The notes below the pieces were generated by a model. It was not told where the DNA came from. It saw nothing but the letters and a program-made list of their open reading frames with translations, and made no database searches. Position numbers and translations under genes: made by a program. From Edaphocola flava (GTDB taxonomy: Bacteria; Bacteroidota; Bacteroidia; Chitinophagales; Chitinophagaceae): a stretch of DNA of 64,000 bases. This document shows, in pieces, positions 26,368-55,750 of the stretch. Where the stretch lies: positions 248,001-312,000 of the forward strand of contig NZ_SAIQ01000002.1 of assembly GCF_004118155.1 (NCBI RefSeq). The letters run 5' to 3'. Positions within the stretch are counted from its first letter, which is position 1, and every line of letters begins with the position of its first letter.

Positions 26368-26851
26368 ATCTTACTATCCGCATGTAGGCAACTATTTGAT
26401 TCATCCTTTTGTCCGGCAACAAAAGGACCAAAAGTGCCTTTGTTTTCATCAAGGCGATTGCAAAGCACCGCCATTTTTGTACCATTGCGTGCATTGATCG
26501 TCTGAGCTTAACGTGTGATGCGTTCGGTGCTCAACGATCGCAGCTCCACTCCAAAATGGCTATCGCTGTGATGAAAACAATAAGCGATCCGTACCGTACA
26601 GATCGCTCCAAATGGCCTTATAAATCCGGCGTTCATAAAATCATTGGCTCGGTCGATAGAGTTGCAAACCACTGTCTGAGCGCAGCGAGTCTGCGTTTGC
26701 GACCGACCGACACATTGATTTTTAGCCAGGGATTTATATAGCCTTGATTTTTTGGCGGTACCTTTTGCATCAAGGCAAAAGGTAGCAAAAGATATATAGG
26801 ATACTTAAATCATAATACTAAACTTTGTTTCCTTTAAGCGGATACTCAGTT
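26368..26851 (+). mobile_element. MITE-like structured repeat element, copy A (484 bp)
   Basis: Matches 55211-55686 over nearly the whole length, about nine bases in ten by eye. Imperfect terminal inverted repeats share TATCCGC (26375-26381) / GCGGATA (26838-26844). Internal pairings include TCCTTTTGT/ACAAAAGGA (26404-26412/26419-26427), TTGTTTTCATC/GATGAAAACAA (26440-26450/26570-26580), TATAAATCC/GGATTTATA (26619-26627/26730-26738) and TACCTTTTGC/GCAAAAGGTA (26759-26768/26775-26784). Short frames in it are not conserved as proteins. Flanking 8-mers TAAAACTA (26361) and TGATACTA (26851) agree at 6 of 8, a possible decayed target duplication. It lies between a stop codon and a terminator. Confidence 0.8.
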
Positions 26852-48173: not shown

Positions 48174-48417
48174 GATTTCTCGGCTCCGCTACGCTCCACT
48201 CGGAAGGACGGGAACACCCACTCAATTCATTTAAGGCACCAGCCAGGGTTTTGGCCACCACTCGTCATATCGACCGAAGCGTTAGCGTAGTGGAGATATC
48301 TCCTGATCGATTGAAGAATAGAGGAGATTTCTCGGCTCCGCTGCGCTGTGCTCGAAAAGACGGGAACACTCAATTTATTGAAGGCACGCGCCGGGATCGC
48401 GCGCCAGCCAGGGTTTT
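48174..48417. repeat. Duplicated intergenic repeat module in the RAYT island
   Basis: Module 1 (48174-48252) and module 2 (48326-48417) both begin GATTTCTCGGCTCCGCT, contain GACGGGAACAC and a TCAATT...AAGGCA stretch, and end CAGCCAGGGTTTT. Module 2 carries a degenerate REP core (GCACGCGCC...GCGCGCCAGCC). Between them lies a different segment (48253-48325) with ATCGACCGAAGCG...GTAGTGGAGATATCTCC. No coding potential that I trust. The whole 48069-48535 stretch is non-coding apart from the promoter at 48521. Confidence 0.8.
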
Positions 48418-54540: not shown

Positions 54541-55206
54541 ATGTTCGACTTACTTCCGGTAGCCCCCGACAGCGCATTTGCCTGCAGTAAAAAGGGAGTG
54601 TATACCTTCATTCTTTGCTTTCTGACCTGGGTCGTGCTGGGTGGTATACTATTGCTGACATACGGCAATCTTCCCCTGTTTAAATGGGTGCATACGCATC
54701 ATGTTCACCTTGGCGATATTTTCTTTAGATGCTATACCGCCATTGGTACCGCAGTGGTGATCATACCGGTATTACTTGCTTTATTCTGGTACCGTTACCG
54801 TAATCGTTATTTTCTCTTGCTGGTGATTAGCACACAGATCGGCTCTTTGCTGATCAACCAGGCTATGAAATTTGCATTTGCACATGCACGTCCGGTTGCC
54901 TTGTATGGAGACGAGCCCTGGTTTCATTATATCAGCGGAGAGGTATTGCATCGGGCGCATTCCTTTCCTTCGGGCCATACGGCAGGTGCTTTTGCCTTTG
55001 CTTTTCTGTTATCCTTACTGTCCCGCAGTCAGTCAGTATTAAAGGCCATTTTGCTATGTGTAGCAGCATTGTTGGTGGCTTATTCCCGTATGTACCTGGG
55101 CCAGCATTTCTTTACCGATATCTACATTGGCAGTATAGAAGGAGTGGTGGTGTGCAGCGCTGTGTTGCTTGCCTTTTACAAGGCAGGGTATTGTCGCTTT
55201 ATATAA
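54541..55206 (+). CDS. PAP2-type membrane phosphatase
   Basis: 221 aa, six hydrophobic helices. All three phosphatase motifs: K-F-A-F-A-H-A-R-P near residues 103-111, H-S-F-P-S-G-H-T-A-G near 140-149, S-R-M-Y-L-G-Q-H-F-F-T-D near 181-192. Start ATG directly follows the permease stop. Its position behind an LPS exporter favours a lipid A or undecaprenyl-pyrophosphate phosphatase, though phosphatidic acid is possible. The stop codon (55204-55206) lies inside the direct repeat bordering repeat element B. Confidence 0.9.
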   Translation: MFDLLPVAPDSAFACSKKGVYTFILCFLTWVVLGGILLLTYGNLPLFKWVHTHHVHLGDIFFRCYTAIGTAVVIIPVLLALFWYRYRNRYFLLLVISTQIGSLLINQAMKFAFAHARPVALYGDEPWFHYISGEVLHRAHSFPSGHTAGAFAFAFLLSLLSRSQSVLKAILLCVAALLVAYSRMYLGQHFFTDIYIGSIEGVVVCSAVLLAFYKAGYCRFI

Positions 55207-55211
55207 TTGTA
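55204..55211 (+). repeat. Left 8-bp direct repeat (target-site duplication candidate)
   Basis: TAATTGTA, identical to 55686-55693 on the far side of element B. Includes the PAP2 stop codon. Confidence 0.75.
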
Positions 55212-55686
55212 ACTGACTATCCGCATTTAGGTAACTATTTTACTCGTCCTTTTGTCCGGCAACAAAAGGACCAAAAATGCCTTTGTTTTCATCAAGGCGA
55301 TTGCGGAGCACCGCCATTTTGTACCGTTGCGTGCATTGATCGTTTGAGCTTAACGTGTGATCCGTTCACTGCTCAACGATCGCAGCTCCACTCCAAAATG
55401 GCTATCGCTGTGATGAAAACAATAAGCGATCCGTACTGTACAGATTGCTCGAAAGGCCTTATAAATCCGGCGTTCATAAAATCATTGGCTCGGTCGATAA
55501 AGTTGCAAACCACTGTCTGAACGAAGTGAGTCTGGTTTGCGACCGGCCGACACATTGATTTTTAGCCAGGGATTTATACAGCCTTGATTTTTTGGCGCTA
55601 CCTTTTGCATCAAGGCAAAAGTTAGCCATAGAAATTAACGCGAGGAAAAAGGCAAATCTTTGTTTCCTGTAAGCGGATAATCAGTT
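55211..55686 (+). mobile_element. MITE-like structured repeat element, copy B (476 bp)
   Basis: Same element as copy A in the same orientation. Terminal inverted repeats of 21 bp pair at 17 positions: AACTGACTATCCGC... at 55211-55231 against the complement of ...GCGGATAATCAGTT at 55666-55686. It is bordered by identical 8-mers TAATTGTA. Removing the element and one 8-mer rejoins the PAP2 stop codon to the palindromic terminator now at 55694. It shares the internal stems of copy A with several differences. No transposase is encoded; the short open frames are not conserved as protein. Confidence 0.87.
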
Positions 55687-55693
55687 AATTGTA
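55686..55693 (+). repeat. Right 8-bp direct repeat (target-site duplication candidate)
   Basis: TAATTGTA, matching 55204-55211. Abuts the terminator palindrome. Confidence 0.75.
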
Positions 55694-55750
55694 TTTTTCT
55701 ATAAAAGAATGGCGCGCCGGTAACCGGCGCGCCATTCTTTTATAGAAAAA
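55694..55750. terminator. 57-base palindromic bidirectional terminator
   Basis: 28-bp perfect arms from TTTTTCTATAAAAGAATGGC to the complement, centred on a single A (55722). Serves the M28-PDZ gene and, originally, probably the PAP2 gene now cut off from it by element B. Confidence 0.94.

Follow-up and report, generated by a model that had tools for sequence, protein, structure and literature searches.

Siguier 2009 is reportedly the founding paper of the IS1595 family. REP/BIME repeats are short palindromes, and they carry neither TIRs nor target duplications, as is also the case for the palindromic elements of the IS200/IS605 type. IS1595 elements, on the other hand, usually have 8-bp flanking duplications, and a zinc finger is present in all IS1595 groups except IS1016, according to the description in PMC8101967. 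A MITE related to ISHwa6, a member of the IS1595 family, is listed for Haloquadratum walsbyi with a length of 165 bp, 7 copies, an IR of 25 and a DR of 8 (PMC3852290). Transcripts of QMITE2 of Coxiella, and of other MITEs, are predicted to fold (PMC10969869), and within the Bacteroidota a minisatellite-containing MITE is likewise described from Porphyromonas gingivalis (PMC4596501).

The window analyzed here, a stretch of 64,000 nucleotides from the genome of Edaphocola flava, a member of the Chitinophagaceae, contains two copies of a non-coding element that resembles these systems. With the ISHwa6-related MITE it shares TIRs of about 25 bp, an 8-bp duplication, the multi-copy state and the assignment to IS1595, and it differs from the archaeal element as described (165 bp) in being 474 bp long, in having at least 40 copies, in belonging to the Bacteroidota and in its folded, conserved interior (PMC3852290). 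It is also similar to QMITE2 concerning TIRs (23-29 bp in QMITE2), duplications (7-9 bp) and a strong predicted fold, but, unlike QMITE2 as described there, it has a covarying core that recurs across the phylum (PMC10969869). The preliminary description of this DNA knew of no named family with such a structure; the ends together with the 8-bp duplication narrow this down to the IS1595 transposase family. No description of MITE or module appears among the literature matches listed, and four papers containing one module-like string seem unrelated, judging by their titles. Of the features of IS1595-family MITEs, the element shows the 8-bp duplication, TIRs in common with elements that encode an IS1595 transposase, a partner protein (that of G125) with the DDE_Tnp_IS1595 domain and the IS1595 zinc ribbon, and the multi-copy state with no transposase gene. 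The MITE is thus IS1595-type and of a known kind, and the new part is the covarying interior module, which has no Rfam match.

The features of the window are collected in the table below. Copies A and B have the same orientation, a start-to-start distance of 28,840-28,843 bp and 89-94% identity by segment, which agrees with the two copies about 29 kb apart of the preliminary description. The pairing of 17 out of 21 bases that it gave for the TIRs of copy B is reproduced when the ends are read from one base further out, and its further observations hold as well: identical 8-mers border copy B, the TAA stop of the PAP2 gene provides the first three bases of the left 8-mer, the palindrome abuts the right one, and copy A is flanked by a decayed direct repeat (TAAAACTA / TGATACTA, 6 of 8 matching). 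Open frames overlapping copy B, judged by their length, reach at most 154 aa. The whole element folds at z -9.2 and the window module at z -4.8. Another direct repeat (family D5), with two 54-nt copies that are 81% alike and 152 bp apart, lies at window positions 48174-48379.

Table. Position of the MITE copies and their neighbouring features in the window.
Feature	Position	Strand	Remark
MITE copy A, 482 bp	26369..26850	.	orientation as copy B
Conserved structured module in copy A	26614..26788	-	130.2 bits, model R1
PAP2-superfamily gene upstream of copy B	54541..55206	+	Pfam 2.6e-20
Left 8-bp target duplication of copy B	55204..55211	.	TAATTGTA
MITE copy B, 474 bp	55212..55685	.	non-coding
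Left terminal inverted repeat of copy B	55212..55239	+	ACTGACTATCCGCATTTAGGTAAC...
Subterminal hairpin near copy B left end	55242..55278	+	weak module-model match, 17.2 bits, E 0.026
Conserved structured module in copy B (P1, possible loop pseudoknot, P2, P3)	55455..55628	-	128.9 bits, model R1; one of the 24 sequences used to build R1
Right terminal inverted repeat of copy B	55658..55685	-	ACTGATTATCCGCTTACAGGAAACAAAG, read inwards
Right 8-bp target duplication of copy B	55686..55693	.	TAATTGTA
Long palindrome of terminator type, directly right of the right duplication	55694..55750	.	

The Edaphocola flava genome (3.54 Mb, 15 contigs, rated 100% complete) was searched with the element, a check proposed in the preliminary description, and yields at least 43 matches, at least 40 of them over 270 bp or more; since 40 of the 105 first-look candidates were scored, this count may be a lower bound. 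The end motif ACTGANTATCCGC, allowing up to one mismatch, occurs 50+43 times, compared with 1+2 times for the reversed-pattern control. Shorter derivatives with MITE ends (101-128 bp) are also present, and a 101-bp one is flanked by the perfect duplication TAATACAA.

Duplications were counted for 28 copies in which both ends were recognised by script (up to 4 mismatches out of 13 per end), leaving out copies with truncated or altered ends; two copies with doubtful ends (L074, L079) were kept in this count and dropped from the position and hairpin counts below. The flanking 8-mers are identical in 11 of the 28 copies and match in at least 7 of 8 bases in 16, well above the maxima of 4 and 6, respectively, reached in 10,000 re-pairings of left and right flanks. 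Per position, flank identity (taken from 23 copies in which neither end has more than 2 mismatches) has a mean of 0.83 inside the 8 bases, compared with about 0.3 in the six positions to each side of them. The duplicated target is 90% A+T, with a pattern of about TWAWWTWA. A perfect duplication is absent in 17 of the 28 copies, as expected for old insertions, with which these imperfect duplications fit without proving age.

Empty sites were searched in a congener and sister species (G125) by joining the flanks with one 8-mer, for ten copies picked non-randomly for their good duplications. A match spanning the junction, and hence an empty site, was found for 8 of these 10 selected copies, and the other two (L002 and L027) are filled in both species. 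At base level, four of the eight junctions are gapless (L003, L005, L018 and L023) and the other four show small indels, several of them in L025; for L008 and L025 the junction match is split in two, with some extra G125 bases beyond the junction. Copy B of the window is itself present at the orthologous place of G125 (93% identity over 2,060 bp). As G125 is filled there, it is the shorter spacing in a further genome (G031) that points to an empty site for the window copy: the flanking genes match at G031:C1:480434-480728 and 479442-480299, and the about 134 bp between them are too short for the element, so this site is probably empty.

Two transposons with matching TIRs were found outside the own genome. 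The first, at G125:C3:246386-261063, is 14,678 bp long (14.7 kb), has perfect 28-bp TIRs (ACTGAGTCTCCGCTTTTAGGAAACAAAG) and an 8-bp duplication, TAATTGAT, on either side; its TIR is identical to the right end of the window MITE in 24 of 28 bases, and it has inserted into another MITE copy, right at that copy's end. A 319-aa protein is encoded beside the right end of the transposon, with the DDE_Tnp_IS1595 domain (PF12762, 1.6e-22), a zinc ribbon (PF12760, 6.8e-7) and an NCBIfam call as IS1595 family transposase (187 bits vs a cut-off of 75). The cargo (L139, L145) includes a response regulator, an aspartyl-protease-like protein, a TIR-domain protein matching the candidate defence family PADLOC PDC-S66 (6.4e-104) and a large protein with a weak match to the sorting tail Por_Secre_tail (25.5 bits, cut-off 27). 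MTnSag1 and tISCpe8, mobilizable transposons of the IS1595 family, resemble this element in combining an IS1595 DDE transposase with TIRs (25 bp in both) and a duplication around extra genes, whereas, relative to their description, the G125 element has TIRs of 28 bp and a cargo with the PDC-S66-matching TIR-domain protein (PMC5704250). The second transposon, from another genus (G099:C7:86305-90340), is an IS1595-type element of about 4 kb with TIRs of the MITE-left type, its two ends being identical to the left end of the MITE in 20 and 19 of 24 bases; TAATGCTT is duplicated on either side, and its transposase gene lies in two pieces, 50% and 49% identical to the G125 transposase. Neither of the two partner transposons contains the module.

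In the own genome there are four IS1595 transposases, distant from the G125 partner (22-29% identical). For three of them no matching TIR was found within 8.5-9 kb, allowing up to 2 mismatches, and the fourth is encoded by a 4.2-kb element that has different ends (GGCA...) and lies inside a MITE copy. An isolated left end of the large transposon is found at C1:962272, with no convincing right end within 18 kb beyond it, and neither a partner transposase of the G125 type nor an intact matching transposon was found in this genome. Transposons with matching TIRs and a transposase gene, for which the preliminary description proposed to search, were thus found in two other genomes, but no intact one was found in the own genome. 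In our judgement a same-genome partner is not required for an IS1595-family MITE, as the partner can be lost. Two candidates were discarded: a TIR pair at C10:5853-6709, considered as an 857-bp autonomous element, spans ordinary reading frames and was taken as chance, and the 4.2-kb element, considered as the MITE partner, is a nested insertion, since reading by eye gives it GGCA-type ends and an 8-bp duplication, CTATTTAT, of its own. This IS1595-type transposon (L110:686-5393, corresponding to G000:C9:10186-14892) has the ends GGCAYTAATATAC... and encodes a 363-aa transposase.

The position of the insertions was analyzed for 25 copies whose flanks were long enough. Once the empty site is reconstructed, 24 of them fall between frames of at least 100 aa, the sole exception being L028, which has a doubtful right end. 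In 21 copies one or both of the neighbouring frames end towards the element. In 7 copies the 8-mer and the stop codon of an adjacent frame (at least 100 aa) overlap, and in 4 of these the stop codon constitutes the outer three bases of the 8-mer; the stop position is hence no peculiarity of copy B. Terminator-like hairpins, taken as stems of 8 bp or longer that contain 5 or more G-C pairs and lie no further than 50 bp from the duplication, are found near 14 of 26 copies vs 11.9% of 1,500 AT-rich non-coding control positions sampled within the window, with a nominal p of 2.6e-7 that is approximate because the control positions overlap.

Concerning the interior, which the preliminary description, right in its MITE reading, had missed as a widely distributed conserved structured module, the MITE contains one copy of a module of about 170-240 nt with covarying stems and a possible pseudoknot. 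The hairpin P1 has the loop CTTGAT and is followed by an A-rich linker and by ATCAAG, complementary to the loop. The stem P2 is closed by GGCU/GGCC and has arms that are variable yet complementary; beyond it come a conserved inner loop, GCTAAAAAT / ATTTTCTTAACGC, and a variable P3 arm. Covariation was evaluated on 24 sequences from 22 genomes. Paired cells amount to 95.3% vs 82.8% in shuffles, a percentage that is biased upwards because the sequences were picked by motif and their own alignment also served to draw the structure. Both sides change at twenty pairs vs 10.5 in shuffles, and the covariation score is 0.358 vs 0.117 for shuffles (none out of 500 as high) and 0.07-0.09 for versions with slid partners. 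In the pseudoknot four of the five counted pairs are invariant, and the varying one keeps pairing (CTTGAA/TTCAAG and CTTGAC/GTCAAG); as one pair in five varies, the pairing of loop and downstream segment is suggested rather than proved. A U-G pair in the closing stem is conserved in 16 of the 24 sequences. G-U cells number 24 vs 11 A-C cells, and 8 vs 11 without this one position, an excess that disappears with a single pair, so that the counts favour neither RNA nor DNA. Like the structured RNA families of Rfam 15, the module has covarying stems; no Rfam family matched the window at gathering scores, and none matched the module in five loci (E up to 1), the weak hits falling outside it.

The distribution of the module is much broader than that of the MITE. 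In a family-wide DNA search, long matches to the element are restricted to the genus, and the short core is present in 41 of 195 genomes, the genus included. Within the family, the covariance model R1 detects the module in 50 of 117 genomes, representing 47 of 100 genera; at the level of the phylum it does so in 79 of 296 genomes. Searching the core motif as an exact pattern gave, among the matches listed, Edaphocola, Taibaiella, Bacteroides luti, Parabacteroides, Dysgonomonas, Prevotella, Cytophaga, Elizabethkingia and others; the same exact pattern had 0 matches in viral_contigs. Repeats that bear the module in G096, G026 and G082/G159 have other terminal sequences, as read by eye in part of the copies: 13 of 20 copies of G096 and 4 of 13 of G026 were aligned via an orientation tag, and one of eight G030 copies and nine of the twelve G082 copies were displayed. 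Seven further module copies of the own genome have no MITE end (up to 2 mismatches) within about 500 bp; two of them (L275 and L276) also match a stretch of the other half of the MITE, and may be decayed MITEs.

Taken together, the element is very probably a MITE mobilised in trans by an IS1595-family transposase, with a conserved folded module as its interior. For the first part, which upholds the main proposal of the preliminary description, the computation directly gives many copies with their TIRs, 8-bp duplications, empty sites in the sister species and two IS1595-type transposons with matching TIRs and a transposase. An IS1595-family DDE transposase would bind the imperfect TIRs of about 28 bp (ACTGAnTATCCGC...) and insert the element, moved in trans as a non-autonomous transposon, into an AT-rich 8-bp target, which becomes duplicated; the insertions found are almost always intergenic, mostly next to a gene end and often next to hairpins resembling intrinsic terminators. 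Judging from the similarity of the ends, it is the G125-type subgroup of transposases that would have moved the MITE, or would still move it. One could instead think of a resident IS1595 transposase of another subgroup that accepts these TIRs, as four of the IS1595 type are present in the own genome and an element of this type, bordered by an 8-bp duplication of its own, lies within a MITE; yet the search around these four gave no case of a transposase enclosed by its own ACTGAnTATCCGC-type ends, and both elements with matching ends carry the G125-type subgroup, which makes this origin unlikely. Far less probable still is a REP/BIME-like intergenic structural repeat, amplified by recombination and flanked by 8-mers that agree by chance in AT-rich DNA: although the high copy number, the intergenic position (24 of 25) and the strong secondary structure (z -9.2) would suit it, re-pairing gives at most 4 perfect duplications vs the 11 observed, and the element-free junctions with one 8-mer in G125 are a strong counter-argument. 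Duplications and base-level empty sites likewise separate the element from both REP/BIME and IS200/IS605-type elements. The preference for the gap between a gene end and its terminator, also proposed earlier, holds as a pattern in the hairpin and gene-end counts, but targeting is not separable from selection. We consider the chances even that adjacency to terminators results from selection, insertions elsewhere in small intergenic regions having been lost since they broke promoters. A gene ending towards the element in 21 of 25 copies is what avoidance of promoter regions would produce, and the hairpin control matches AT content and non-coding position, not promoter distance; the overlap with stop codons (7 of 25) would fit a site preference, but an AT-rich target as well. 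With copies residing preferentially next to terminators, effects on transcript ends can be tested. An orphan intergenic repeat is also linked to a transposase family that has a name, and the empty sites and candidate autonomous partners open trans-mobilisation to direct testing.

As for the second part of this reading, the interior of the IS1595-type MITE is a conserved folded module spread far wider than the MITE, and is no deleted remnant of the two transposons, which raises the question of why repeats with unrelated ends retain one folded core. The most economical view is that of a selfish or tolerated element enclosed by different ends in each lineage, and as a working guess we take the module to be a structured element of RNA or DNA, selfish or tolerated by its host, and carried along by any ends that happen to enclose it. 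More broadly, and tentatively, the core of the MITE could represent an undescribed, phylum-wide family of structured nucleic acids, a molecular passenger enclosed by unrelated ends (IS1595-type in Edaphocola and at least three others by eye), high-copy in many Bacteroidota and possibly a functional RNA at gene ends. A role of the module as a functional RNA is possible and can be tested; in its fuller form, as a functional unit and putative transcribed structured RNA with a cellular or selfish role and MITEs as its vehicles, we hold this to be somewhat doubtful. In its favour are the covariation and the uniform architecture of the 24 sequences (22 genomes), the conserved U-G pair, the occurrence in 79 of 296 phylum genomes, and the presence inside repeats with other ends as well as in own-genome copies without recognisable MITE ends. 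On the opposite side, G-U cells apart from the U-G pair do not outnumber A-C cells, the motif-based choice of sequences and the self-derived structure inflate the paired percentage, four of the five counted pseudoknot pairs never vary, and both partner transposons lack the module.

The contexts of the module are diverse. In the own genome, several of the copies without recognisable MITE ends (L274, L276-L280) share another, longer repeat, extending to about GAAAGTTTCGTACC. An arrangement as integron-like cassette arrays, considered because of the clustering of modules in some genomes, was dismissed on informal grounds, G481 showing tandem copies between ordinary genes and the Bacteroides luti loci an alternating orientation. 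As to a tie of the module to one protein family, among 120 module loci the largest group of similar neighbours, a small XRE-type regulator, accounts for 8 loci in five or six genomes; as its distance varies between about 0.4 and 2.6 kb, this stands as an observation. At L084, L086, L087, L308, L330 and L332 the module lies about 0.4-2.6 kb upstream of the conserved XRE-type regulator gene, on the same strand. On the Bacteroides luti contig NZ_FQTV01000003 (L300, L314, L334 and L336) neighbouring modules are about 0.4-4 kb apart and always alternate in orientation, and two modules of these loci begin 3 nt past a stop codon, on the strand of the gene. In G593 and G481 (L405, L407, L408 and L409), two to five modules of equal orientation follow one another at distances of about 290-490 bp; they lie between ordinary genes, in L409 carB- and trxB-like ones by eye.
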